From the IMG/VR virus record IMGVR_UViG_3300035659_000049, positions 1-39,788 of that record: a DNA stretch of 39,788 bases, one strand, 5' to 3'. Position 1 is the stretch's first letter, and each line of letters begins with the position of its first letter. The DNA is from a virus. Positions 1,456-39,788 of this stretch are shown one piece after another. A model generated the notes under the pieces. It saw only the letters and a list, made by a program, of their open reading frames with translations, was not told the origin of the DNA and searched no databases. Position numbers and translations under genes: made by a program.

Positions 1456-4400
1456 TCAACGCATTCGGCGGGACCGGAGCCCTAAATTGCGGGGAACAGT
1501 GCGGTCCCCGTGCCCTCCGTGGTTGCGGGACCGCATCATTTGGTAGCGAGCAGGCGTCATGGCGGATCCCGCCGCCCTACCCATCCCCGGACGAACCCCG
1601 AAAATGTGCTTCGTGTGGGAAAGTCGCTCGGATGAGAGCCACACGGACCGCACGAAGGCATCGCTCATGTCGTCGTGGTGGCCAACGGCGTCCGGCGCCG
1701 CAACAATGACAATGTTCTTCGACATTTGCTGCGCCTGGAGAGTCAGCAGTTCAGCGATGAACTGAGAGTGCTTGGACCCGTCCGGCCTTGGCCAGTCGTA
1801 AATCGAGAGCTTCCTGTCGAACATGAGCAGCTTCACCGTCTGGTACATCTTCGACGTCGTGTCCCGCTGGAAAAACTCGCTCCTGAACTGGCTCAGGCCC
1901 TTCTTGTGAAGCGCCTGCTCCAACGGGAGCCCGTTCCAACGGTCGAAGATCCCATCAGCGATGAAGAAGCGCTTCGAGAGCTTGACGATCCACTCAGCGA
2001 TCTCGTCGAAGTCGAGCCGCTCCACGTTCGCAAGACCCTTGGCGTAGTCGGTCGAATAGCGTGACCCGAGGTGGGGGTTGGATTCCCTCCAGTCTACACC
2101 TGCCTGCCACAACTCGTGGTAGTCGAGGACGATACGATCGTCCTCGCAATGCGTGATGAAAAGGGCCGTACCGTCGTCCACCAAACCGACGTCGATACCC
2201 ATGCTGTGAGGGTAACGTGGAATCCCAGTCTCGACCGGGCGCCGCTCTTCGTCCACGCACGCCATAAGGTCGACTTCGCGCTCGATCCAACCCCGAACGC
2301 GGTCGGAGAACTCCGCCCCGTGCTCGGTCATGAAGACCATAGGGTCCGAGTGGAACTTCTGCTCGTAGTACGTCGTAGGAACGGTCGGGTTGATCTCCCA
2401 AGTCGGCGCCTGGATGGCCAGGAGGCTCTCCGAACCTCTTCCCTTGCTCATCGCCAGGTGGAACAGCTCGTAGAACTTGCCCGTCTTGTTGAGGGGCGAA
2501 GAGATCAGGATGATGCGGGCTTCGGAGGGCGTATCCGATCCGAAGATGGGCATGCCCGTTTCCTGATTCTTCGGGGAGAAAGCGGCTGTCGACGGCGTGA
2601 CGGCGGAGTAGATGTCCGCAGCGGACGACTGGCCCTTGTCCTGGAAGTGGGCGATCTCATCGAGGATGACAACGAGGTTACCGGCTCCACGAAGGCCCTT
2701 CGCGATACAGCTCTTGAAGGTGACGCGGATCGACGCCTTGCCGTTGAAGCTGACGAACTTGCCGTTTTCGTGACGTGCGGTCGGGCCGTACTTGTCGATG
2801 TCGTACGGCGTCCGGAACTGGATGTACCCCTGGGTGTTGTTCGCGATGAACGGCGTGAAGTACTCGCACTTCGCAAGGTGACTCGTCACCTCATTGAAGA
2901 GCAGACCGGCCTGGTCCTTGTCGGTGGCGACCGAGATGATCTGGATGCGGTTGCCGTTGGGGAGGCCGTAATACCCTTGGGGGTTGTGCAGGTTGAGAAG
3001 CCGGTAAATCTCGTACGACGCAAAGATGCCCGAGAGCGTCGTGTTGTGGTTCGTCATCCCGTTGGCGACGAACGACTCCCCATCCGGCACGGTCAGGTCA
3101 TAGACATGACTCTCCCCCATCTCAACGGAGGCCACGGCGTCGTAAAAGTAATCGAGGCGTAGAAGCTCCTCGAAGTGCGCCGTTTCAACTACGCCCACAT
3201 GTAGCTCCTTAGCGACCCCCAGAGCGCGACGGATCTTTGGGTATGTCAGGTCTTCGCCGCTGCCCTTATGGACGTTACCGGTGGCCTCTCGGAGCTTTGA
3301 GCGCCCCCATCCAAGTTCGCCCCGAGCAGGGTTGCGTTTGGGAACCGACTCCAACCAATCCCGAACGCGCTGACGTTGATGTGGGATGCTTTCGGTGTCA
3401 GATTTACCCTCTTGAGCCACTTCGAGGGCGGCCATCATCGGGAGGCGCTTTTTATCCGAATCGAACCCGACCATCTCCGCGAAACGCTGACGCGAACGAA
3501 CCCCCTTGAGGGAGAGGTTCGCATAGTGCTTCTGGGTCTTGGAGTTCCACTTGCGAGCGACGTTCGAGACGATCCCGAGATTCAGGAGCACCACCTGAAC
3601 CTCGTGGGCCAGACGGAAGCTCGCGGTAGAGAAGGAGATGATCCGACCCCCGCTTTCAGCACACCCGTCCGTCTCGAAGAGCCCACGAAGGAACGCGCAC
3701 ACGACCGGACGTGGTGACCGTAGAATCGCCCACGGGATCATCTTCTCATCCCGCACGCACCCGAGCTTCCAACCCAGGGCATCAAGGAAGCGGCGAGCGC
3801 GGACGCTACAAAACTCCAAGCGCCCCGTGTTAACGGTGCGTTCGTCCATCTGGACTCGGGGTTCCCCGAGAAGCTCCGTGAAGAGACTCCGTAGGTACGC
3901 CCAGGTTTCGGGGTGTTCAACCGTCACGGAGATGGCGTGGTCGTCTCCCCATGTCCCATCACCGACGAGATAGCCAAGCAGGTTCCCCCACTTCTCATCG
4001 AGCACTGTCGGGAGCACGACGTCCTTGCGCCCATCCTCGTTGTGGAAAGGTCGCAGGTCGAGACTCTCAGAGGCCCACAAATCCGTGCTGCGGTTAAGCC
4101 CTACGAAGGTGCCTGGCTGAACTTCGTCCAGGTAGCACCACTCCACATGACCCGAAGGACACATCACTTTGACGCGGTGGTTGGCGGTCCCCGTAACCGT
4201 GTAGCCAGACTCAGTTTTGATCGTGTACGTCGGTTTGACACCACCGTTGTAGAACGCCGTAGCCTGCGCCCTACGACCACCCTCCTGAGCGACGCCGACA
4301 TCTGAGGGTGTGAAGTCTTCTTCGGAGGCGACCCCGAGATCAACGATGCGGATGATGCCTTGGCTGGTAGGGACGAGGGTGTCACCGTCCACGCATTTTC

Positions 4401-4857
4401 CCGCTCTTCGACCGATGGCGAGGATCAACTCGCGGCGCTCGTGGTCCTGCTCTTTGATGTTGCAGCGACCCTCGTTGTAGAGGAACTCCAGGTACTCTTT
4501 CTCCGTGAAGGAGTAGAGCGTCTTCCGGTTGAACATGTCCGTGATCGAGATCGTCTTGTTCCGATCGTCGAGCGGCAGGTGATAGTACAGCTTGATGATG
4601 AAGCGTTGCGCTGGGAAGGGCCGCATCGCGAGACCCCAAGGCGCCTCGATGTACTCCAGGATGTTGAAGATCCTAGGTGAGTACGGGCGGGGACCGGCCA
4701 CCGGCGTAGGGATCGGGTTCCCCTCCGCATCGGTGAGAATGATGCTTGTCCCCTCCGGAAGAGGCGGCGGTAATTCAGCGGTAGCCTTCGCCCGCTGACC
4801 CGCTTCGCGGATCATAGAAGCGAGACCGCCACCCGTAGGCCGAGGCTTGGTGGCCAC
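1456..4857 (-). CDS. terL: Terminase large subunit, interrupted by an intein
   Basis: DNA-packaging motor: an ATPase plus a nuclease that cuts concatemers. The 1133-aa precursor starts at GTG 4857, preceded by GAGGT. The N-extein ends in GRRAGK (149-154) and the C-extein resumes with TTLSGI at 606, so splicing restores a Walker A motif GRRAGKTT. Walker B is VVILDE (729-734). The C-terminal RNase H-like nuclease shows MGIDVG (D889) and GHHDDMSDAF (1059-1068). Removing the 451-aa intein leaves about 682 aa, within the large end of the TerL range. TerL cannot bind ATP properly unless the intein splices, because the P-loop is split. A probable small subunit lies 4 bp upstream. Family assignment is firm. 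Confidence 0.95.
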   Translation of the reverse strand: MATKPRPTGGGLASMIREAGQRAKATAELPPPLPEGTSIILTDAEGNPIPTPVAGPRPYSPRIFNILEYIEAPWGLAMRPFPAQRFIIKLYYHLPLDDRNKTISITDMFNRKTLYSFTEKEYLEFLYNEGRCNIKEQDHERRELILAIGRRAGKCVDGDTLVPTSQGIIRIVDLGVASEEDFTPSDVGVAQEGGRRAQATAFYNGGVKPTYTIKTESGYTVTGTANHRVKVMCPSGHVEWCYLDEVQPGTFVGLNRSTDLWASESLDLRPFHNEDGRKDVVLPTVLDEKWGNLLGYLVGDGTWGDDHAISVTVEHPETWAYLRSLFTELLGEPRVQMDERTVNTGRLEFCSVRARRFLDALGWKLGCVRDEKMIPWAILRSPRPVVCAFLRGLFETDGCAESGGRIISFSTASFRLAHEVQVVLLNLGIVSNVARKWNSKTQKHYANLSLKGVRSRQRFAEMVGFDSDKKRLPMMAALEVAQEGKSDTESIPHQRQRVRDWLESVPKRNPARGELGWGRSKLREATGNVHKGSGEDLTYPKIRRALGVAKELHVGVVETAHFEELLRLDYFYDAVASVEMGESHVYDLTVPDGESFVANGMTNHNTTLSGIFASYEIYRLLNLHNPQGYYGLPNGNRIQIISVATDKDQAGLLFNEVTSHLAKCEYFTPFIANNTQGYIQFRTPYDIDKYGPTARHENGKFVSFNGKASIRVTFKSCIAKGLRGAGNLVVILDEIAHFQDKGQSSAADIYSAVTPSTAAFSPKNQETGMPIFGSDTPSEARIILISSPLNKTGKFYELFHLAMSKGRGSESLLAIQAPTWEINPTVPTTYYEQKFHSDPMVFMTEHGAEFSDRVRGWIEREVDLMACVDEERRPVETGIPRYPHSMGIDVGLVDDGTALFITHCEDDRIVLDYHELWQAGVDWRESNPHLGSRYSTDYAKGLANVERLDFDEIAEWIVKLSKRFFIADGIFDRWNGLPLEQALHKKGLSQFRSEFFQRDTTSKMYQTVKLLMFDRKLSIYDWPRPDGSKHSQFIAELLTLQAQQMSKNIVIVAAPDAVGHHDDMSDAFVRSVWLSSERLSHTKHIFGVRPGMGRAAGSAMTPARYQMMRSRNHGGHGDRTVPRNLGLRSRRMR
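3043..4395 (-). mobile_element. TerL intein with LAGLIDADG homing endonuclease (451 aa)
   Basis: Precursor residues 155-605. The N-terminal splicing block begins with Cys (CVDGDTLVPT); block B is VTGTANHRV with the TxxH histidine. The C-terminal blocks are HVYDLTVPDGESFVANG and the final TNHN, followed by Thr as the +1 nucleophile. Two LAGLIDADG motifs (LLGYLVGDGTW near 293-303 and LRGLFETDGCA near 390-400) indicate a full homing endonuclease domain. A later stretch (about 490-560) is not assigned. All splicing residues look intact, so an active intein is likely. Coordinates follow from the Cys1 and terminal Asn codons. Confidence 0.93.
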
Positions 4858-11169: not shown

Positions 11170-11799
11170 TCAGACGCACTCATCCCCACCGCGATTTGCC
11201 CACTGTGGGAGTTTCACTTCTCTTAAGATGTTGAACTTTTTGCTCGAAATAGCGGAGAAAATACGGTGGTAGGGGTCGTATTTCTCGTCCTTCTCTGCGG
11301 CGTCCTTGAGGAGCGAGACGGACTTGAAGAAGCGGTGGCGCACCCTGCCTTGGGTGAGCCCGAGCTGGGTGGCGACCTCGGATTGGCAGGTCGTCTGCCA
11401 CATGCCGACGAGGATATCGACGTCGATGGCCAGGAAGATGTCCGCGAGGTCTCCCCGTAGCTCATCCTCGGTCACTTGGGGGATGCTCAACAGGAACTTG
11501 ATGCGCTGGAGCCCACGATCGAGTCGGTAGGAGATGGCCGCTTGGGTGACGCCGAAAATCTCGGCTATGTCGGCCTGTCGCTTCTTTTGGATGTAGTAGA
11601 GGTAGATGAGGTCTGCTTCCCTTTGGGGGATGCGATCGAGGAGAGGCCGGATCCGACTTTCGTAGTCGGCACCGACGAGGAAGGTTTCGACCTCCTCTTC
11701 CTCTGCCGCCCGTTCGTCATCGTCCATCTCCTCTGGGGACGAGAAGCGATTCGCGAGTTCCGCTGGATCAATGGGGATGACGTAACCGTTGGCGGCCAT
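11170..11799 (-). CDS. Sigma-70 region-4-like protein with two helix-turn-helix motifs
   Basis: ATG 11799 with GGAGG 8 bases upstream; 209 aa. Residues about 50-103 match sigma-70 region 4: LLDRIPQREADLIYLYY, then ADIAEIFGVTQAAISYRL, then RGLQRIKFL. A second HTH-like segment (about 138-165) reads QSEVATQLGLTQGRVRHRFF and also ends in a hydrophobic helix. The N-terminus is acidic (DDDERAAEEEEVE). There is no recognisable region 2, so it would not melt a promoter like a full sigma factor. Inference: a late-gene transcription regulator or sigma-like adaptor. It sits between replication and virion genes, next to the NusG-containing fusion. Confidence 0.75.
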   Translation of the reverse strand: MAANGYVIPIDPAELANRFSSPEEMDDDERAAEEEEVETFLVGADYESRIRPLLDRIPQREADLIYLYYIQKKRQADIAEIFGVTQAAISYRLDRGLQRIKFLLSIPQVTEDELRGDLADIFLAIDVDILVGMWQTTCQSEVATQLGLTQGRVRHRFFKSVSLLKDAAEKDEKYDPYHRIFSAISSKKFNILREVKLPQWANRGGDECV

Positions 11800-11820: not shown

Positions 11821-13758
11821 TCAACCAGCCGCGTTGGCGAAAAAGTTCGCCAGGATACCGTCCGGTTTAATATCCACATCGTGCAGCCGCTCACGGACTG
11901 CGATCTGATTTGGATCTGGGCCGACAAGCGTGAGATGCAAATCATCGTGGAGCCTCATGAGGTCCACATTGAGTCGCACCTGTTTCTCGGCGCTCTTGAG
12001 GTTGTTGTACTGAGCCTTGGTCAGTCCCGCCAAATTGGAAGCGAATATACGATCGACGCTACCATATAGCTTGACGAGCTTCGAGGCGGTTTTCAACCCG
12101 AACCCCAAAGCTCCGGGGATATTGTCAGAGGTGTCCCCACTCAGCGCTCGCACTTGGGTCACCTCAGCAGGTGGGACCCCATATTCCTGAAGCACCGCGT
12201 CAATGTCGTAAACGCGCTCTTTTCCAGCTCCCACGGCCGGCACGAACTGGCGATCGGTTGAGCTAACTAGCTGAAGCATGTCCCGATCGGTGGTCACCAC
12301 CAAGTTCACTTGCCCCTTGAGGGACCCGTGAACGAGCGTCGCGATCACATCGTCCGCTTCCTCTTCTGGGTGCCATGCCTGGTGGACCCCAATCATGGGG
12401 AGCACTTCCCGCAGCCACTCCGTCTCGAAAGCGATGGGGGTACGCTCCGCTCGGTTCGCCTTGTACTCAGCGAATTCTTTGCGCCGACGTTGGGAGGAGG
12501 AGTCCCAAGTCACGTGAAGGGTTGCGTCGGGCCAGCGCTTGTGGAAACCCCCTAGGCTTTGGAGGAAGCCTAGGACAGCGCCCGTCGGTCGTCCTTGGCG
12601 GTCCTTGAGGGTGTTCAGACCTGGAGCCATGAGGCACCGGATGGCCAACTGGGTCCCGTCGATGATGACGTTCTGCACCATCATATCGCCCCCGGCTTTG
12701 AGTGAACGCTCGATGGTTTCCACGTCGGAGCTGACAGCCTCCAAGCGAACAACCATGTCTTGGAACCACGACCACTCAAGATACTTGCTCTCCAGTGGCG
12801 AAAGGGGAGGTGGAGTGTAGGACGAGTACACAATCGGACGCAACTTCTTTCCAGTGTCGGCCCATGCCTGAAGGCGAACCACCTCCTCAGCTTTCGCCTT
12901 CAAAGGTGCGGGATCCAAAGGACGAAGTATGTAACCGATCGGTCGGCCCCTCTCGACCCACGAGGTGAGGTTGGCGAAGGCCCGCAGTTTGACCGCAAGT
13001 GCCTCCGGGTCAAGGACAACCTCATTGGCCTGGATGAATCCGAAGCACGCCTTCCCCACGCGTACCCAAGTATCTAGTTTGACGAAGGTTTCGTACGGGA
13101 GAAGGACACGGAGGATTTCTTCCTTCGGCCACCCAAGCAACGCGCGGGCCCCTCGGAGCCAGTCCCGCAAGCCACTTGCCTGGTCGGCGTACGGAGAGCG
13201 CGGGGCCTTTTCCACAAGACGGAGGCACGCCCGAGGCAGTGTGATGATTGCCTCTTTCGACCGAAGCTTGATGTAGACCTGCACCGCATCCTGCTCGGGG
13301 ATCTCCTCTTCGACGCGAGCCTGGATCTTCCGGTACGGGCCGGACGTGATGAGCACGAGATCCCCGACGCAGATCCCCTGATCGACCTCTTCTCGGATCT
13401 GTCCGCGAAACTTGTCAATTTCGCCGCTCGTTACGAAGGCAATCTGACGGACAGGGCGCGACCCATTCACACGGGTCGTCGTCCGGAGGACGCTGTTGAC
13501 GAACTTGGTGTTTTCGAGACGCAGGTAAATCTGGTCCGCATGACTGCGACGGACGAAGGCGTAGCCCTCCATCAAGTACTGAACAACCCGCTCCTCCCCC
13601 ATTTGCGTTACCGAAGCCGGAATGAAGACATCGGCATCGCGAATGGAATGACGGATTGACGCTCGAATCTCGTCCGGGTCTGCCCCGTCCGCCTTCGGCC
13701 CCAATTCCAAAACGACCCACTGGTCGATCGGCGGTTGCGGAGGGTTCAGCTCAGCCAC
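11821..13758 (-). CDS. Fusion protein: NusG-like (NGN+KOW) domain and 5'-3' exonuclease/flap endonuclease
   Basis: I chose GTG 13758 (GAGGTG six bases upstream, overlapping the dnaX stop as GTGGCTGA), giving 645 aa; an earlier in-frame GTG at 13797 is less likely. Residues about 13-105 resemble a NusG NGN domain (QWVVLELGPKA, EGYAFVRR, YLRLENTKFVNSVLRTT). A KOW segment follows (about 131-183: VGDLVLITSGPY, VQVYIKLRSK). Residues about 197-330 are a linker with LxxW repeats. Residues about 360-645 are a FEN/PolA-type 5' nuclease: VIIDGTQLAIR (D367), HPEEEADD (E465-467, D469, D470), TTDRDML (D491, D493) and GDTSDNIPG (D542, D545), then a helix-hairpin-helix. Known roles: NusG modulates RNA polymerase, and FEN removes RNA primers and flaps. 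Their covalent joining is unusual. Confidence 0.85.
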   Translation of the reverse strand: MAELNPPQPPIDQWVVLELGPKADGADPDEIRASIRHSIRDADVFIPASVTQMGEERVVQYLMEGYAFVRRSHADQIYLRLENTKFVNSVLRTTTRVNGSRPVRQIAFVTSGEIDKFRGQIREEVDQGICVGDLVLITSGPYRKIQARVEEEIPEQDAVQVYIKLRSKEAIITLPRACLRLVEKAPRSPYADQASGLRDWLRGARALLGWPKEEILRVLLPYETFVKLDTWVRVGKACFGFIQANEVVLDPEALAVKLRAFANLTSWVERGRPIGYILRPLDPAPLKAKAEEVVRLQAWADTGKKLRPIVYSSYTPPPLSPLESKYLEWSWFQDMVVRLEAVSSDVETIERSLKAGGDMMVQNVIIDGTQLAIRCLMAPGLNTLKDRQGRPTGAVLGFLQSLGGFHKRWPDATLHVTWDSSSQRRRKEFAEYKANRAERTPIAFETEWLREVLPMIGVHQAWHPEEEADDVIATLVHGSLKGQVNLVVTTDRDMLQLVSSTDRQFVPAVGAGKERVYDIDAVLQEYGVPPAEVTQVRALSGDTSDNIPGALGFGLKTASKLVKLYGSVDRIFASNLAGLTKAQYNNLKSAEKQVRLNVDLMRLHDDLHLTLVGPDPNQIAVRERLHDVDIKPDGILANFFANAAG

Positions 13759-15175
13759 TCGCGTCACCTCGATTGAGCCACAAGCGCTCAAACTCACGCC
13801 GCCACACGTCCGCGTTGAGTGGTTTCATGTCATCCTCGTCCACGTTCTTGCCAGGGAAGACGAGGTGCTGATGTCCGCGTGCGTCCATCCGAGGCATGGG
13901 CGCCGCGTTCATATTTAGCTTCACATCCATCTCCCCAAGGGGAGGGAGATCAGGGGTCGTGAGTTCCTTGACAGGGGGAGGGGCCGGGGCCGGAGCGGCG
14001 GGAGCTGAAGCAGCAGGGGCAGGGGACGCAGGGGCAGGGGATGCGGCCTCCCCAGGCGCAGGGACCGACGCCACGGGGGCAGTAGCAGGAGCAGAACCCC
14101 ATGGAACCAAGACCGGGCGACCCAAAGGTTCGATGGGGGTCTTACCATCCCATTGGGAGAGGACCAGAATGTCGCGGACGAGGCTGACTTCGGAAACGTG
14201 TTTGGCCTTGAGAAAATGGTCGGCGAGATGAATGACGTACGGGCCATACTCCCCGTAGACCCTCTTACCCAACTCACGATCAGCGGAAACGAAGTCAGCG
14301 AACATATTGTTCGCGAGCCGATAGCTGTTCATGGCAGCTTCGGCAAGGCCGGCAGCAACAGCGTCCGGCGAGATTTGCTCACATGCTTGATCTACGAACC
14401 CGATCGCTTTTTTAGGATCTCGGAGGGCAAGCAGGATCTCGTAAAAGAGCGAGACCACGGAGAGCTTGAGGTACTCCCGAACCCCATCGACGGTGATGGG
14501 CCCCAGTTGGGAGATCATCTCCATCTTGTTGAGGATGTCTCGCACGTGACCGCCGGAGTGGTCGATGATGACTAGGACCGCATCATCCTGGTACTCGACT
14601 CCTTCTTGCTGAAGGACGAGTTTCATCCGTCCGAGGATGTCCTCACGTGTCACCTTGCGGATCGTGTACGGCTCGCACCTCGAACGGATCGTCCCACGGA
14701 TCTTGTCCGGCTCCGTTGTGCAGAGGATCGCGATCATCTTCTTCTCTTCAATCGGCTTGAGGAGAACGTCCTGGGCCCCTTGGCCCATTCGGTGCGCCTC
14801 GTCGAAGAGATAGACACGCTTCGATGCGTTGAAGACCGAGAACGGAAGCTCGTTGACGATAGAGCGTATGTTTTCGATGGTGCCCTGGCTGGCAGCATCA
14901 CGCTCTGAGAAGGGGCCGGGCTGGTCGTTGAGGATTGCCAGGCAATTCTCGCACTTGTTACAGGGCTCCGGGTCGGCCTTGTCCAAGTTCAAACAGAGCA
15001 TCGCTCGTGCGTAGATACGGGCCAAGGTCGTCTTCCCTTGGCCGTGACCGCCCTCGAACAAATAGCTCGTATCCAAGGCAGTGCCTTTTTGCAGGCGTGC
15101 CTTAAGGAGCTGGACAGTCCCAGGTTGGCCTAGGACCTCCGCGAATTTCAAGGGTCTGTACTTGGTATCCCACAC
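13751..15175 (-). CDS. dnaX: DNA polymerase III gamma/tau subunit (clamp-loader ATPase)
   Basis: GTG start at 15175 with no clear Shine-Dalgarno; an in-frame stop just upstream limits other choices. The 474-aa product opens with MWDTKYRPLKFAEVLGQ, the classic DnaX N-terminus. It has Walker A GGHGQGKTT (42-50), the zinc-module cysteines C61, C72, C75 and C78, the DEAH box (125-128) and the SRC sensor (165-167). About 40 residues of Ala/Pro-rich linker (near 360-405) precede a short C-terminal region with VWRREFERLW, shorter than the bacterial tau extension. It would drive beta-clamp loading with delta and delta', which are also encoded here. Its stop overlaps the NusG-FEN start. Confidence 0.95.
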   Translation of the reverse strand: MWDTKYRPLKFAEVLGQPGTVQLLKARLQKGTALDTSYLFEGGHGQGKTTLARIYARAMLCLNLDKADPEPCNKCENCLAILNDQPGPFSERDAASQGTIENIRSIVNELPFSVFNASKRVYLFDEAHRMGQGAQDVLLKPIEEKKMIAILCTTEPDKIRGTIRSRCEPYTIRKVTREDILGRMKLVLQQEGVEYQDDAVLVIIDHSGGHVRDILNKMEMISQLGPITVDGVREYLKLSVVSLFYEILLALRDPKKAIGFVDQACEQISPDAVAAGLAEAAMNSYRLANNMFADFVSADRELGKRVYGEYGPYVIHLADHFLKAKHVSEVSLVRDILVLSQWDGKTPIEPLGRPVLVPWGSAPATAPVASVPAPGEAASPAPASPAPAASAPAAPAPAPPPVKELTTPDLPPLGEMDVKLNMNAAPMPRMDARGHQHLVFPGKNVDEDDMKPLNADVWRREFERLWLNRGDASG

Positions 15176-19846: not shown

Positions 19847-20737
19847 TCACAGTCCGAGGTCTTCTACACCCGAGACTGCCTCGATCGACGGAGAATTCGA
19901 CTTTTCGTAAGCCGTCCCCTCGTCGCACATAGCCAGGAAGGGGCATAGCTTGCACTCACGCGTCGGCCGCGTTGGAAAAGCCTCAAACAGCCGCTTCTTC
20001 GGGTCCGAATCCTCTACGCTGAGCCTGCGCCCACCCGCCTCGATGGTCCGAACGACCCCCATCACAGCCTCGTTGAGCACCTCCACGTCGCGTACAGTGC
20101 AATCAACCCAGTCAAGGCTCTCTTCGGGCTCGTACTGCCAGTAGAGAAAGCCGAAGCGATCAGGGAGACTCCCGTGCTTCTTCTGGAAAAGCATCCCGTA
20201 CCACTTGAGTTGCCGCCGATCGACGTACTTGTCCCGCCACCGCGAGCCTTTGCCATCGATGAGAACAAGGTCCCCCTGTGGGTGAAGGCGCTGAATGATG
20301 AAGTCGCACCGTCCTCCTAGGGTGTGGCCGTCGAAATCCGAGTCGAGCCTCACCTCGGGCTCCGCGTCGACACCAACAAGGCGATGGTGACGAATGATCG
20401 CCAACCCACGCGGGATGGTTTTCCGAACATCCGCTTCGACGTCAGCAAAGGACTTGTAGACCTTGGACTGCTTCCAATCCCACGTCCCGCTCTTCGATTC
20501 CTTCTCGATGGTCCGCTTCATCACGCGAGGGACCCGGCTCATGAGCGCCTCAACGGGATCGGGAGCGTGCCAGAGCCGATCCTTGTAGAAGTACTCGAAG
20601 AGTGTCCCCACGACAGCCCCGTAAAGCATCCCCACACGGTTGTCCGGCGCCGGAGGCTTCGTCTTGTTGATGTACCCGTGCCAGTACGATCGCGGACACT
20701 GCTCGTACTTCTTGAAGCCAGAATACGAGAGGTACAT
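19847..20737 (-). CDS. PD-(D/E)XK nuclease with 4Fe-4S cluster (Cas4/AddB-like)
   Basis: 296 aa, start overlapping the SbcD stop (TGATG). The cluster cysteines are C14 (YEQCPRSYW) and C262, C265, C271 (RECKLCPFLAMC), the typical split arrangement of Cas4/AddB/RecB-type exonucleases. The nuclease core shows LGGRCDFIIQ (D145) and LVLIDGKGS (D161, K163), a PD-(D/E)XK motif. QLKWYGMLF follows, as in RecB-family motif III. Inferred role: nuclease acting with SbcCD at DNA ends, generating 3' ends for RecA. It could instead act in phage-encoded host DNA degradation. There are no cas1/cas2 genes, so Cas4-like naming describes the fold only. Confidence 0.85.
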   Translation of the reverse strand: MYLSYSGFKKYEQCPRSYWHGYINKTKPPAPDNRVGMLYGAVVGTLFEYFYKDRLWHAPDPVEALMSRVPRVMKRTIEKESKSGTWDWKQSKVYKSFADVEADVRKTIPRGLAIIRHHRLVGVDAEPEVRLDSDFDGHTLGGRCDFIIQRLHPQGDLVLIDGKGSRWRDKYVDRRQLKWYGMLFQKKHGSLPDRFGFLYWQYEPEESLDWVDCTVRDVEVLNEAVMGVVRTIEAGGRRLSVEDSDPKKRLFEAFPTRPTRECKLCPFLAMCDEGTAYEKSNSPSIEAVSGVEDLGL

Positions 20738-22839
20738 CAGCCGACGCCCCCACGAGCACGTTCGAGGTACTCGACGGCCGTACGTTGGACATCCGTGGCG
20801 AAAGAGAGCGTTGCGATGTTCTCTTCGATCGACTTCTCGGTGTCGATGGATCCGCTCTGCTGAAGCGTGAGGATGAACTGGTCGATGCTCTTACTCTCTT
20901 GCTCGACCCGCTCCTTGCGCTCCATGTCGAACACATCCTCGGGAGGGGCCACGAGGAGCGTTATGGGGGTCACCCGGATGCCATCATGATCGGCTTCGAT
21001 GAAGGCGACCTTGGGTGTCCTTGTGATGTTCTCATGGCTCAGGGCCCCACGACTCACGGCGCCCAGGTTCACGAACGTCTTGCCGAAGACGGTGACGATG
21101 CCCTGGTCCTTGTGCCAATGCCCGAAGCAATTATGGACAAGCACCCCACCCGCCACGTATTCGCCCGTGTCCGTCCGAAAGTTATGGACGGGCCCTTCAT
21201 AATGGAATCGTGACACCTCTCGTACACGGGCATAATACAAGCCACCATCGAAGAAGCCTGCAACTTTGGTTTTACTGCGACAGGGAGGTTGGACCCCAAG
21301 CCTATGGGATATGAGTTCAGCATCGTCCCCGTAAAAGGAGATGACATTACACGGAAAGTTACCCCCGTCCTGGGGGGGTCGTATCGTAAAGTATGGGCGA
21401 AGGCCGACAGATAGCGCCAAGAAGAATACTTGGAAGGCCATCACTTGAGAGACAGTAGCTCCCATCACATCGGTCTTTGATGATCGCGCATGCCCGTCCC
21501 CAAGAAGCCATCCTACTAAAAACTCGGTGCGGGAAATCGCGGACTGTTGCCAGATCCAAGACGAAAGGCTCTTCCGATCGGAATACCGACCGCCATGCTC
21601 TGCAAAGAAGTCGGCGATCTCTCGACCATAGGCGCAAACCTGAATACAGGCACCAGAGGTGGGATGTTCATGCGAGTCTAACCCAAAGAATTGTTTCACA
21701 AGGTCTCGTACGTCCCCACGCAGGTCCGCCTCATCTGCGTGGAAGGACCACGCGACACCAGCTACGGGTTCTTTGTCCCGGTTCGTGATAATATGCCCCT
21801 CCGCTGCGTAGTACCCGAGCAATCGAGCAAGACCTGGTTCGGATGCTGCCCCGGTCGGAATCTGGGGGACGGGCAAGGCGACATAATCCCCGCCCTCAAT
21901 CTGAGCAGCGCCCACCCACGTGGCTTGGACAGCAGGCGCCTTTTCACACCCAGAGCACGGGTATGAAGTGCGCGTCTTGTCCGGGTGACATCGACGAGTT
22001 GAGCGTGACGGTAGAACACAACGTAGATTCCTTGCGACCCAGTAAGGGTGTTCTGCGGTCGTCCCTGGCACCAGAGGTGGCACCCCCTCAATGTCAAGAC
22101 GCACCAAATCTTCGGATACTTGACGAACCGGGTGCGCAGCACCTACGACTGTTGACCCACTTCGACCCAAGACAACAGCGCCTTCGGTGATATGTGCGAT
22201 GGGGATGGGACGGTAAAGCCAATCCAGCACCGGCGTTTCCGGGGGGAAACACCAAACGTCAGGGCCATCCTCCGACGCAAGATCGGAGTAGCGGAAGACG
22301 GGCTCCCCAAAGAACTCTTCAACACGAGCGGGGGGATCATCCCCGGCGAGCTGATGGACAACCGCGATGAGGTACGTGTCCCCTGGTTGTTTCTTGATCG
22401 CCAAGAGATCAGCCAGCGTACGTGTTGGACTGTACGGGGCCCCCACAACCCGGACGCGAAGCTTGCCGTCCTCGAACACCTGGTCCCGGAGTTGTTGGAA
22501 GACCCCGCTCGCGAAGAGGACCCCGAGGGGTTGCTTGTCGATGGTCTCCAGGTTGTTGTAAGCGACGTCGTGGTTCCCCTCGACCTCGAACGTGGGGCAC
22601 GGGTAGCCCTTCTGGATCTGAGCTGATTTCACGACAAGGGCGTGAGAGTTCCGGCTAGCCGACTTCAGGTGGATGTAGTCGCCCCCATCGAGCACCGCCG
22701 CAGCCTCGTGTTCCTTCGCAAACCGACCGATCTGCTCCAGGTTCGACCAAATCTCCGTCGGGTAGTCCGCCTTCCACGAGACAGGGCTCCGATCCGAGAC
22801 GTGGGTGTCCGTCCGGTAGATGAAGGCAATCCTCGGCAT
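20737..22839 (-). CDS. sbcD: SbcD/Mre11-like metallophosphoesterase nuclease, interrupted by an intein
   Basis: 700-aa precursor, ATG 22839 overlapping the SbcC stop (TTTAATG). The N-extein has the metal-binding motifs DTH (D11, H13), GGDY (D51/D54) and EGNHD (N89, H90, D91), plus H162. Its last residues are DGPDVW (191-196); the C-extein resumes with CFGHWHKDQG (571-580), so splicing restores DVWCFGHWH with the GHxH motif. Without splicing the active site is broken. The mature protein is about 326 aa, close to T4 gp47. The partner SbcC halves flank it (N-terminal half immediately upstream). Role: Mre11-type exo/endonuclease for end processing. Confidence 0.93.
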   Translation of the reverse strand: MPRIAFIYRTDTHVSDRSPVSWKADYPTEIWSNLEQIGRFAKEHEAAAVLDGGDYIHLKSASRNSHALVVKSAQIQKGYPCPTFEVEGNHDVAYNNLETIDKQPLGVLFASGVFQQLRDQVFEDGKLRVRVVGAPYSPTRTLADLLAIKKQPGDTYLIAVVHQLAGDDPPARVEEFFGEPVFRYSDLASEDGPDVWCFPPETPVLDWLYRPIPIAHITEGAVVLGRSGSTVVGAAHPVRQVSEDLVRLDIEGVPPLVPGTTAEHPYWVARNLRCVLPSRSTRRCHPDKTRTSYPCSGCEKAPAVQATWVGAAQIEGGDYVALPVPQIPTGAASEPGLARLLGYYAAEGHIITNRDKEPVAGVAWSFHADEADLRGDVRDLVKQFFGLDSHEHPTSGACIQVCAYGREIADFFAEHGGRYSDRKSLSSWIWQQSAISRTEFLVGWLLGDGHARSSKTDVMGATVSQVMAFQVFFLALSVGLRPYFTIRPPQDGGNFPCNVISFYGDDAELISHRLGVQPPCRSKTKVAGFFDGGLYYARVREVSRFHYEGPVHNFRTDTGEYVAGGVLVHNCFGHWHKDQGIVTVFGKTFVNLGAVSRGALSHENITRTPKVAFIEADHDGIRVTPITLLVAPPEDVFDMERKERVEQESKSIDQFILTLQQSGSIDTEKSIEENIATLSFATDVQRTAVEYLERARGGVG
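21130..22251 (-). mobile_element. SbcD intein with LAGLIDADG endonuclease and a zinc-finger-like insert (374 aa)
   Basis: Precursor residues 197-570. It begins CFPPETPVLD; block B is GTTAEHPYWV with the TxxH histidine; it ends EYVAGGVLVHN, followed by Cys as the +1 residue. LAGLIDADG motifs are RLLGYYAAEGHI (about 339-350) and FLVGWLLGDGHA (about 440-451). Between the splicing N-domain and the endonuclease is a cysteine cluster, C274, C284, C295 and C298 (ending SYPCSGCEKAP), which could form a zinc finger that helps bind DNA. All splicing residues look intact. Coordinates follow from the Cys1 and terminal Asn codons. Confidence 0.93.
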
Positions 22840-34893: not shown

Positions 34894-35862
34894 CTACGAA
34901 GCGAGAGCGAGAACCGCTAGTTCGATGAGCGTCCTCTTCGAGCGTGCGGGACCTTTAACATCCACATCCAATTTGCAAAGCCGTTCCATCTGGCGAACCA
35001 GATTCCCAGAGTCGTGCTTCCGCGCGACCGGAAGAGCGAAGTTCTTGAACGGCCATGGCTTCATACCGACCGCCGATGCGATCTCGTCCTCAGCTACACC
35101 TTTGTCGAGAAGGCGCCGTATAATGAGCGTCTTTTCGACCTGTTTCATGAGCGCGTGAACGACCGGGACGAACGCGTCATCACCTTCGTTTTTGTATAGA
35201 ACGGATAGGGCGTTCATCGCCCTCTTGGGGTCCTTTGAAATGGACGCCTCGGCCACCTGAAATGGATCCGTCGTAGGGGACGGTGACGTAACAAGCAGAA
35301 GGTGCTTCTTGGTCACCTTTTCTTTGGGATCCACCAAGATGGCGAGCTTGCGAAGCTCGCTTGCCAAGCGATACAGGTCACCGCCCACGCTCTGGTAAAA
35401 GAGCTTGTCCATGTCCTTTTCGAAGGTGACACCAACTCGGGCGGCCTCTTCGGCCAGCCACTTGAGGACCTCGTTGTTCGTGTCCCAAGTCTTGAGCTTC
35501 TTCCGCTCGTAAACCTTTGCCTTGGGCCCCAACGAGGACCAAAGTTCGGGGAGCTTCTCCCCTCGGATGATCCCGACGAGGACTACCGAAAGGTCGGTCT
35601 TGGCCTTCAGCTCGAAGAACTCACGTAAGGACTTGTCACCCTTGATCTTCTGGGCATCATCAACGATGATCGTCCTCGGAACTTCGGCCCGCTCCTCACA
35701 GAGAGAGACGAGCTTGTAGTCCGTCAGGGTTGTCCCGTCGTGAAGCTCAGGCTTGCGGTTGGCCCAATGGCGGGCCCGCTCGATGTCCCGGTCCAGGAAG
35801 AAATTCTCGCTCCCGAAGGCGACAAGAAAAGGGAGAACAGGGGATCGGGGGGTGCTTGCCAT
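34894..35862 (-). CDS. holA: DNA polymerase III delta subunit (clamp-loader opener)
   Basis: I chose ATG 35862 (MASTPRSPVLPF), 2 bp after the delta' stop; the longer frame would overlap delta'. The product is 322 aa, close to the family (about 330-345). The N-terminal domain shows LVAFGSENFFLDRDIERA and a Rossmann-like DDAQKIKG, VVLVGI (no P-loop). The C-terminal part contains YQSVGGDLYRLASELRKL and LIIRRLLDKGVAEDEIASAVGM, typical of the collar domain. Role: binds and opens the beta clamp with DnaX and delta'. Neighbours delta' and the clamp support the call. Confidence 0.88.
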   Translation of the reverse strand: MASTPRSPVLPFLVAFGSENFFLDRDIERARHWANRKPELHDGTTLTDYKLVSLCEERAEVPRTIIVDDAQKIKGDKSLREFFELKAKTDLSVVLVGIIRGEKLPELWSSLGPKAKVYERKKLKTWDTNNEVLKWLAEEAARVGVTFEKDMDKLFYQSVGGDLYRLASELRKLAILVDPKEKVTKKHLLLVTSPSPTTDPFQVAEASISKDPKRAMNALSVLYKNEGDDAFVPVVHALMKQVEKTLIIRRLLDKGVAEDEIASAVGMKPWPFKNFALPVARKHDSGNLVRQMERLCKLDVDVKGPARSKRTLIELAVLALAS

Positions 35863-35864
35863 GA

Positions 35865-36824
35865 TCAAACACCAGCGAACGTCTGAGCAAAAAGCGTCTT
35901 CACGTGGAAAGACAGATTGATGCGCGTCATCCGATGACGATCCCGCACTGCCTTCAACCCCACGGCGAACTTGGACCACACCTTGAAGGTCCTCGACCCC
36001 GCAAGTTTGGCGAGACCTTCCGAGAGGTCTTGGTGAATCAGGCGGTCAGGGACGTAGGCAACCATGAGGATGTCGTGTAGGAGCTGTTCGAGGAACCGAA
36101 GGGCGAGCGGAAGATCCTGAGAGAAGCCGTCAATTGACGGGAAAAAACCAGCCACATCCCCGCCCAGAGCAAGCTGGAGGAGAGAAACAACACGATCGCG
36201 CAAGCCTAGCCGACCAGCGCCCCAGTATCGGATGGCCCGGCCTATCGATCCTTCACTCATCCTCGCATAGACAAGAGCTTTAGCGTGATCGTGCTCGTGA
36301 CGTTGAAGCACTGATAGGACGAAGTCCTCGGGTAGCGAGCGATAAGAAACTTTTCCAGTTCGCGAGCGAATCGTGGGTAGAATTCGGTCGTCGGACTCGG
36401 CCAGTAGAAAGAACCTCAAACTCTGAGGGGGTTCCTCCAAGGTCTTGAGGAGGGCGTTCGCCGCTGGGATCGTCATACGGTCAACCCCATCGATCAAGAC
36501 GCAGCGCAGGGGAGCCATCAACGGGGCGTTGTCCGCATTCGCGACGATCTCACGAATGGCGTCTACCCCGATGTCCTTGTCATCGGGGACCGAAAGCGAC
36601 GTGAAGTCCGGGTGCATGCTCTGATCGAGCTGGTGGCAGTCCACACAAGGACAACCCTTCTCCCGTGTTCCAGAGCAGAACAACTCCTTGATCGCCTGGA
36701 CGACGGAAAACCGCCGGCCCGTCCCTTCATCACCTACGAAGAGCAATGGCGACGTGAGTTTCCCTTCGACAACCCGTCGGAGGAAACGAACGCCTTCTTC
36801 TTGCCCTTGTACTTCAGCCAGCAT
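35865..36824 (-). CDS. holB: DNA polymerase III delta' subunit
   Basis: I chose ATG 36824 (MLAEVQGQEEGVRFL), which overlaps the upstream stop by 11 bp. The product is 319 aa. It has the AAA+ fold with a degenerate P-loop GDEGTGRR (31-38), as expected for a non-ATPase delta'. Cysteines C50, C58, C60 and C63 (FCSGTREKGCPCVDC) form the zinc module. IDGVDRM replaces the DEAH box, followed by ANALLKTLEEPP and an IRSRT sensor (SRT instead of SRC). Role: stator in the clamp loader, paired with delta and DnaX. Confidence 0.92.
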   Translation of the reverse strand: MLAEVQGQEEGVRFLRRVVEGKLTSPLLFVGDEGTGRRFSVVQAIKELFCSGTREKGCPCVDCHQLDQSMHPDFTSLSVPDDKDIGVDAIREIVANADNAPLMAPLRCVLIDGVDRMTIPAANALLKTLEEPPQSLRFFLLAESDDRILPTIRSRTGKVSYRSLPEDFVLSVLQRHEHDHAKALVYARMSEGSIGRAIRYWGAGRLGLRDRVVSLLQLALGGDVAGFFPSIDGFSQDLPLALRFLEQLLHDILMVAYVPDRLIHQDLSEGLAKLAGSRTFKVWSKFAVGLKAVRDRHRMTRINLSFHVKTLFAQTFAGV

Positions 36825-37017
36825 CTTTCCCCGGTTCGAGTAGCAACTCCGACCGACGGGGAGGTGGATCCACGGGCACGAACTGGAGGACGGCGTGGTA
36901 ATGCTGGCCGCAACCTTCACAGATGTGCCGATGGGGTTCTATCCCGCTCGGCTGGAGCTGCCCTCTACACCGAGGACAGCGGGCGAAACCGGACGAAGTG
37001 GCGGGCTCGTCAGGCAT
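36814..37017 (-). CDS. Small zinc-ribbon protein (67 aa)
   Basis: ATG 37017 (MPDEPATSSGF), 1 bp from the stop of the membrane peptidase gene; a longer frame upstream overlaps that gene. Two Cys pairs, CPRC (positions 14-17) and CEGC (34-37), with HRH and HYH near the second pair, form a zinc ribbon of rubredoxin type. The tail is basic and charged. The gene's end overlaps the delta' start, so they are coupled. Such small zinc ribbons in phages may bind RNA polymerase or nucleic acid; function unknown here. Confidence 0.7.
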   Translation of the reverse strand: MPDEPATSSGFARCPRCRGQLQPSGIEPHRHICEGCGQHYHAVLQFVPVDPPPRRSELLLEPGKDAG

Positions 37018-38742: not shown

Positions 38743-39788
38743 TCAGTGTCGGTGACCCATCGGCAAGATACCCTCGGACGCCTTGGGGCCGGGCTTGCGG
38801 ACAATGGCTTCCGTCGTGAGCAACGTGCCGATGATCGAGACCGCGTTCGTGATGGCGCTTCGGGCAACCTTCGTGGGGTCGACGATACCGGCCTCGAACA
38901 TGTTCTTGATGGTCAGGTCGGTAGCGTCAATCCCGAGGAGGTCGTCTTCCAAGTCCCTGACCTTCTCGACGAAGACGTCACCCACCCGACCCGCGTTCTC
39001 GACGATCTGCCGAAGAGGCTCGTCACACGCCCGAAGAACGAGGGCGAAACCTGCCTTCTCCTCCTCCGATTCGGGAAGGCGGTATCCTTCGAGGGAGGTG
39101 TCGCCCTCGGTCCTGGCCTCCAGAAGCTCCTGGACGCGCTGTGCGGCTCTCAAGTAGACAGTCCCGCCTCCAGGGACCACCCCCTCGTCGATCGACGCCT
39201 TGGTGGCGAATAGGGCGTCTTCCATCCGAGCCTTCAGTTCCTTCATCGCCAGCTCGGACGCCGCGCCGACTCGGATGACGCAGATACCCCCGAGGAGCTT
39301 GCCGAGGCGCTCCTTGAGCTTGTCCTTGTCGTACTCCGACCCCGTGCGCTCAGCCGTTTGGCGGAGCTGGCGGAGCCGGCCTTCGAGGGCTTCCGGCTTA
39401 CCCCCACCATCCACGATGGTCGTGTTCTTGGACGTGACCCGGACCTGACGAGCCGACCCGAGCAGCTCACCCGTGATCTGATCGTTCAAGGACATCCCCA
39501 TGTCCTTCGAGATGAGCGTCGCACCCGTGAGGATGGCGATGTCTTCGAGGATGTCCCGCTGGTTCGATCCGAATCCGGGCGACTTCACGAGCTGGGTGAT
39601 GAGGTTCCCCGCCGTCAAGTTGCCGTAGAAGAGCGGGATAGACTCACCGCTGAAGTCCGGGGCGACGATGAGGAGCGGTCGCTTCTCTTTCACCAACCAC
39701 TCCAAGAGCGGGAGCATCTGCCGGACCGCCGAGACGTGATGGTCTGTCACGAGGACGTACGGGTTTTCCAGGACGCTTTCCTGACGCT
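38743..39788 (-). CDS. groEL: GroEL-type chaperonin (partial, N-terminus beyond window)
   Basis: The frame continues upstream of GTG 39750, reading ESVLENPYVLVTDHHVS, which matches the GroEL apical-domain segment before the DLLPLLE-like motif; therefore the true start lies outside the window. Visible are apical-domain pieces (ILEDIAILTGATLISKD), the intermediate domain (GGICVIRVGAASELAMKE), the helix with EGVVPGGGTVYLRAA, and DPTKVARSAITNAVSI in the equatorial domain. About 347 C-terminal codons are shown. The tail ends SEGILPMGHRH and lacks the GGM repeats of bacterial GroEL. Role: likely folds phage virion or replication proteins; no groES is visible. Confidence 0.93.
   Translation of the reverse strand, partial: RQESVLENPYVLVTDHHVSAVRQMLPLLEWLVKEKRPLLIVAPDFSGESIPLFYGNLTAGNLITQLVKSPGFGSNQRDILEDIAILTGATLISKDMGMSLNDQITGELLGSARQVRVTSKNTTIVDGGGKPEALEGRLRQLRQTAERTGSEYDKDKLKERLGKLLGGICVIRVGAASELAMKELKARMEDALFATKASIDEGVVPGGGTVYLRAAQRVQELLEARTEGDTSLEGYRLPESEEEKAGFALVLRACDEPLRQIVENAGRVGDVFVEKVRDLEDDLLGIDATDLTIKNMFEAGIVDPTKVARSAITNAVSIIGTLLTTEAIVRKPGPKASEGILPMGHRH

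Follow-up and report, generated by a model that had tools for sequence, protein, structure and literature searches.

The window analysed here is the whole of a metagenomic virus record of 39,788 nucleotides (39.8 kb; IMGVR_UViG_3300035659_000049), which also carries huge-phage-like genes (GroEL, RNR, NAD ligase, RecA, clamp loaders, primase and terminase). A single gene of the minus strand (11821..13758) encodes a protein of 645 aa with three successive parts: (i) a NusG-like part, i.e., NGN + KOW domains (residues 11-184); (ii) a helical repeat spacer (residues 185-358); (iii) a complete FEN-type 5' nuclease (residues 360-640). The frame is devoid of any internal stop over 11821..13797 (−). 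The gene likely starts at the GTG at 13758, which overlaps the 3' end of dnaX and is preceded by a GAGGTGA motif, and stops at 11821, in agreement with the coordinates of the initial annotation. Its two neighbours are conserved in synteny: upstream, a dnaX-like clamp loader gene (13751..15175, −; PHROG 5846, 2e-53; PF13177) and downstream, a sigma-region-4-like gene (11170..11799, −; PF04545, 3e-14). The product of the latter contains region 4 at residues 53-101 and an apparent second HTH near residues 137-156, with no recognisable region 2. It is possibly a sigma-4 mimic or a split sigma and not a full sigma factor.

The NusG half is made of an NGN domain (residues 11-123; 13390..13728, −) followed by a KOW domain (residues 127-184; 13207..13380, −). 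Taken as a single sequence, the NusG half of the window protein is below the reach of Pfam and gives weak matches only (phrog_6386, 6e-5; T. maritima NusG in the PDB, 4e-4; TIGR00922, 2e-5). A profile built from 21 relatives matches NusG proteins only in the PDB, the best match (1.5e-10) spanning NGN + KOW. AlphaFold2, run on 71 aligned phage proteins, assigns residues 11-184 a pLDDT of about 95. The whole protein has a mean pLDDT of 89 and a pTM of 0.63, i.e., the mutual placement of the domains is not reliable. When modelled alone, the NusG half matches NusG, RfaH and Spt5 structures (Z 8-10 for NGN). With VIA-align, NGN and KOW each match separately: Z 10.3 and rmsd 1.2 Å over 56 residues for the KOW of T. 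maritima NusG, Z 9.9 and rmsd 3.1 Å over 97 for the NGN of RfaH. The KOW assignment is also supported by the profile alignment and by the loop counts. The N-terminal part thus has the NGN-then-KOW organization of the NusG/RfaH/Spt5 family, and this fold is the one predicted for the N-terminus by AlphaFold2.

The protein does not look like an orthologue of bacterial NusG: it scores 24.5 bits for the TIGR00922 equivalog (cut-off 135.7 bits), and the KOW loop that contacts Rho and S10 in E. coli NusG (I164-F165-G166) is replaced by L-R-S. This L-R-S is found in 42 of 46 fused proteins (see below). The loss of I-F-G was also an early step in the evolution of RfaH (PMC7593976). The GY-x-F motif of the NGN domain is kept in 45/46 fused proteins, with invariant W and Y, and its Phe appears from the alignment to correspond to RfaH F56. 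RfaH cannot bind RNA polymerase without this residue, and it outcompetes NusG (PMC7593976). The phage family resembles bacterial NusG and RfaH by its NGN and KOW folds and by the GY-x-F motif, a putative counterpart of the hydrophobic patch with which the known proteins hold the beta' clamp helices, and differs from them by its divergence, by L-R-S instead of I-F-G and by the nuclease carried on its C-terminus. The predicted target of the NGN domain is the beta' clamp helices of RNA polymerase. Taken together, the RfaH-like Phe and the L-R-S loop suggest that the protein would dock on the host enzyme and would do so without Rho. It should be noted that NusG-like phage proteins are already a listed family (PHROG 6386, transcription antiterminators); a fusion to FEN is not described there.

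The spacer (residues 185-358; 12685..13206, −) is predicted by AlphaFold2 to be all-helical, with a pLDDT of 65-80. Within it lie three degenerate repeats, each some 36-41 aa long (residues 225-265, 261-297 and 293-333; 12760..13086, −). A repeat HMM built from the linkers of other phages, the window being left out, scores 19.6, 12.4 and 11.6 bits on the window protein, and at most 5.0 on 500 shuffles. Such repeats occur in the linkers of several phages, the window included. Among the fused phages, the shortest linker has about 107 aa and the longest about 211 aa; since linker length is weakly correlated with the number of repeat matches (0.21), repeat copy number alone is not claimed to explain this variation. 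In close pairs, dN/dS is 0.11 or less for the NusG and FEN parts and 0.09-0.31 for the linker (the maximum of the linker comes from a nearly identical pair, and pairs with saturated synonymous sites were left unscored). The linker is thus read as protein and constrained, although less so than the domains. The helical repeat spacer was not part of the initial annotation.

The FEN part (PIN + H3TH; residues 360-645; 11824..12681, −) is recognized by Pfam far over the cut-offs (PF02739, 1e-26; PF01367, 3e-17). Its AlphaFold2 pLDDT is about 97 for residues 361-640, and Foldseek matches it to M. smegmatis FEN (8e-18). It has both the PIN-like domain and the H3TH/SAM-fold C-terminal domain of the FEN family. 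Nine carboxylates (D367, D419, E467, D469, D470, D491, D493, D542 and D545), which we take to be the known FEN catalytic metal-binding set, do not vary in any of the 46 fused proteins, and their conservation in 26 free relatives is at least 96 percent. From this conservation the nuclease should be active. The PIN + H3TH fold and all catalytic carboxylates are shared with the N-terminal domain of PolA, M. smegmatis FEN, E. coli ExoIX and T5 D15. Known FENs and 5'-3' exonucleases, however, are stand-alone proteins or fused to a DNA polymerase, whereas the nuclease is here fused to a transcription factor.

The initial annotation had also proposed that an internal ATG near 12681 could give FEN alone. 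Two adjacent ATG codons are indeed found at 12684 and 12681. The second one (12679..12681, −; residue 360) would give a FEN of 286 aa and is preceded by a Shine-Dalgarno-like GGGGGCG (12687..12693, −), with a duplex energy of −10.9, the mean along the ORF being near −3. Among relatives, ATG, GTG or TTG lies three codons before the N of N-x-I-x-D-G in 25/35 protein clusters (background 7 percent per codon; 16 for the next-best position). Where the aligned residue is Val, it is encoded by GTG in 6 of 7 distinct fused proteins, the short-linker subclade being excluded (usage 0.32); where it is Leu, it is encoded by TTG in both of the two distinct fused proteins concerned (usage 0.21). The mean Shine-Dalgarno duplex energy is −6.4 kcal/mol at the internal start and −2.8 at the other in-frame start codons (p = 5e-9, a value that is too small as the sequences are related).

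Comparison with the free FENs leads to the same site. Seven of them (L016, L039, L048, L051, L055, L064 and L069) start at the same residue. The free FENs that start farther upstream have a start codon at that site in only 1 of about 16 cases (a TTG), so a Met there is not needed by the protein. Exceptions are of three kinds: (i) two lineages (L026/L132 and L027/L162) plainly depart from the rule; (ii) in the short-linker subclade the standard codon is not a start, and an ATG with a weaker Shine-Dalgarno lies some 6-9 codons upstream; (iii) the Shine-Dalgarno is weak in some fused members. A conserved in-frame start with a ribosome-binding sequence is thus found outside these lineages, at the very residue where several free FENs begin and where natural splits occur. 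This supports the proposed internal start, the use of which is strongly indicated by sequence comparison, and the gene probably makes both the fusion and FEN alone. In T7, gp4A and gp4B are such an internal-start pair, i.e., a long product and its C-terminal product from one frame. In the case of the pair predicted here, the two products would differ by a whole transcription-factor module.

Relatives were searched for in IMG/VR with alignments of the sigma and NusG proteins, which recovered about 120 loci in a first round and 56 additional ones in a second, some of the latter lying on contigs already found. Short exact peptides of the fused protein gave no match in viral contigs; the alignments of the sigma gene and of the NusG domain did recover relatives. 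The fused set amounts to 46 distinct proteins (36 clusters at 80 percent identity), all from metagenomic huge-phage contigs, with an open frame and the same architecture. Named phage genomes yielded ordinary FENs only, plus a single stand-alone NusG in the huge phage LR745208 (485 kb). No other named phage record has a strong related NusG; in LR745208 the gene lies by itself, flanked by dnaX and sigma, and the genome gave no FEN. In bacterial and archaeal genomes, a scan for the NusG domain with two peptide patterns only, i.e., a weak negative, confirmed no relative.

The starting point being a single metagenomic contig, an assembly error or a missed stop or frameshift had to be considered. 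The 46 distinct fused proteins, mostly at about 40-50 percent identity to the window protein, and the purifying selection on all three parts make this explanation wholly improbable. Chance or artefact is rejected as the source of the fusion on the basis of these 46 proteins, and a stop or frameshift missed in the linker is ruled out since the frame is open in all of them. AlphaFold2, Foldseek and the profile searches, together with the conservation across a phage clade, thus bear out the one-frame NGN + KOW + FEN fusion put forward in the initial annotation, and the same fusion has been recovered from metagenomic phages.

The interval from dnaX to sigma shows three arrangements: (i) no FEN; (ii) a separate FEN after nusG, often with a 4-nt overlap; (iii) the fusion. 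This dnaX-nusG-FEN-sigma cluster as the birthplace of the fusion was likewise missing from the initial annotation. In a tree of dnaX + sigma (89 representatives), 28 fused loci and the split locus L016 form one clade (SH-aLRT 100 percent), in which L016 is sister to the fused locus L005 (SH-aLRT 99). As L016 is nested among fused loci in one supported clade, a single origin of the fusion followed by the later coming apart of L016 is the simplest history. The tree, being unrooted, gives the two unfused arrangements no order in time. The fusion of the two neighbouring phage genes arose once, most likely when nusG and FEN overlapped and the frame break separating them was lost. In L016, nusG-linker and FEN are separated at the same junction, with an ATGA overlap. 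L172, found later and thus not on the tree, is also split at that junction (3650-3705), beside an A7 run; a true fission, a homopolymer error and a slippage site are all possible in this case. These two re-split loci suggest that the phages can do without the covalent link.

The fused genomes sampled each contain a single FEN and a single NusG of this kind, both in the fusion gene (a split pair in the case of L016). A family-A DNA polymerase is present in every one of them. Neither RNA polymerase beta/beta' (the controls being detected in 14/14) nor RNase HI was found in these genomes, the records of which may be incomplete. The NusG part would thus need the RNA polymerase of the host as its partner, and no flap/primer nuclease other than this FEN was found.

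On this basis, the reading retained here is that of a two-product gene: NGN-KOW would dock on host RNA polymerase and place FEN at R-loops or flaps, and the free FEN would serve for primer removal. We hold it tentatively, at a little less than an even chance. The full-length protein and the FEN made from the internal start would then have separate roles. The NGN-KOW part of the former would dock on the host RNA polymerase elongation complex used by the phage, would compete there with host NusG and would not bind Rho. The helical repeat spacer would keep the nuclease at a distance. The tethered FEN could then cut RNA or DNA flaps, as well as the junctions of R-loops, at sites where replication and phage transcription come together. 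The free FEN would carry out ordinary primer removal and Okazaki fragment maturation, with the phage family-A polymerase and, in the window phage, with the NAD ligase. Both the R-loop/flap cutting and the Okazaki roles are suggested by the known activities of the NusG and FEN families, and the docking by the motifs described above. The roles proposed in the initial annotation, i.e., that the protein may bring a nuclease to R-loops or transcription complexes, or may couple transcription and replication, are compatible with this evidence.

The fusion could also be a matter of expression only, i.e., one message would give, at a fixed ratio, two proteins with independent activities. The internal start would then supply additional free FEN, and the spacer would just separate the domains. 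In relatives, nusG and FEN are already adjacent and often overlap by 4 nt, the internal start is conserved and two members have re-split, all of which agree with this explanation. However, such co-expression is achievable by separate overlapping genes without any fusion, and the covalent link with its constrained helical spacer has outlasted deep divergence, with just two splits in about 48 proteins. It is considered less likely.

The reverse direction is more doubtful still. According to it, FEN at the fork or on nicked DNA would bring the NusG part, so that late genes would be transcribed from replicating DNA in a T4-like manner, by host RNA polymerase and the sigma-like protein of the phage. 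The position of the gene is in its favour, since it lies between the clamp loader gene dnaX and the sigma-region-4-like gene (89 representative loci, of which nearly all contain nusG), as is the precedent of T4, where late transcription is coupled to replication through parts of the replisome (PMC2988020, PMC7892883). Nevertheless, NusG works on the elongating polymerase and not at promoters, and the FEN-less relatives still have nusG beside dnaX and sigma, so coupling there needs no FEN. As to the T4 gp33/gp55/gp45 late module, sigma-like and clamp/clamp-loader functions are joined in one transcription-replication system, and the corresponding genes adjoin here; the T4 system has no nuclease and no NusG, thus the likeness is an analogy only.

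Returning to the docked two-product reading, its extension to a clade of huge phages is put forward with still more reserve, as a possible rather than a probable one: a covalent bridge would seat a flap nuclease on the transcribing host RNA polymerase, with a spacer of variable length and a free form of the nuclease, and would couple elongation to flap/R-loop cutting or to replication.

NusG-FEN is a real and well-conserved new domain architecture: its component families are known, their combination is absent from the sources searched, and no description of a NusG-FEN fusion, or of NusG in huge phages, was found in the openly licensed literature. Its maintenance in dozens of related huge phages suggests a physical link of transcription to DNA replication or repair. 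NusG/Spt5 is the one transcription factor common to all cellular life, and it usually works via the partners recruited by its KOW end. That its natural fusion to a flap nuclease was kept for so long suggests an advantage of having the nuclease on the polymerase. The fusion would be a genetically encoded, testable case of transcription coupled to replication or to R-loop removal. As a Rosetta-stone prediction, NusG and FEN may also interact in the sister phages where they are separate neighbours. Moreover, the locus shows how genes fuse and split again in steps while the internal start is kept: DnaX/NusG/sigma and DnaX/NusG/FEN/sigma as separate genes, then the fusion, and the re-split forms.

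Some other features of these phages can be mentioned. DnaX is unusually long (628-912 aa) in several huge phages (L003:18817-20703; L029:3326-6040; L015:1833-4571), and the extra sequence in the ATPase domain of the LR745208 DnaX looks like an intein. Besides dnaX, the window contains two more adjacent clamp-loader-like genes, which overlap each other (34894-36920, −). The GroEL-like ORF (38743-39750, −) covers profile positions 223-532 only, and the record runs 38 bases on; this ORF is either truncated by the contig end or split. The 1133-aa product of 1456-4857 (−) matches the terminase large subunit over its C-terminal half, with helicase-like matches upstream of these, and is perhaps an intein-bearing or fused terminase. 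An SbcD-like protein (20737-22839, −) has a LAGLIDADG match at residues 337-395, which suggests an intein or an embedded homing endonuclease.
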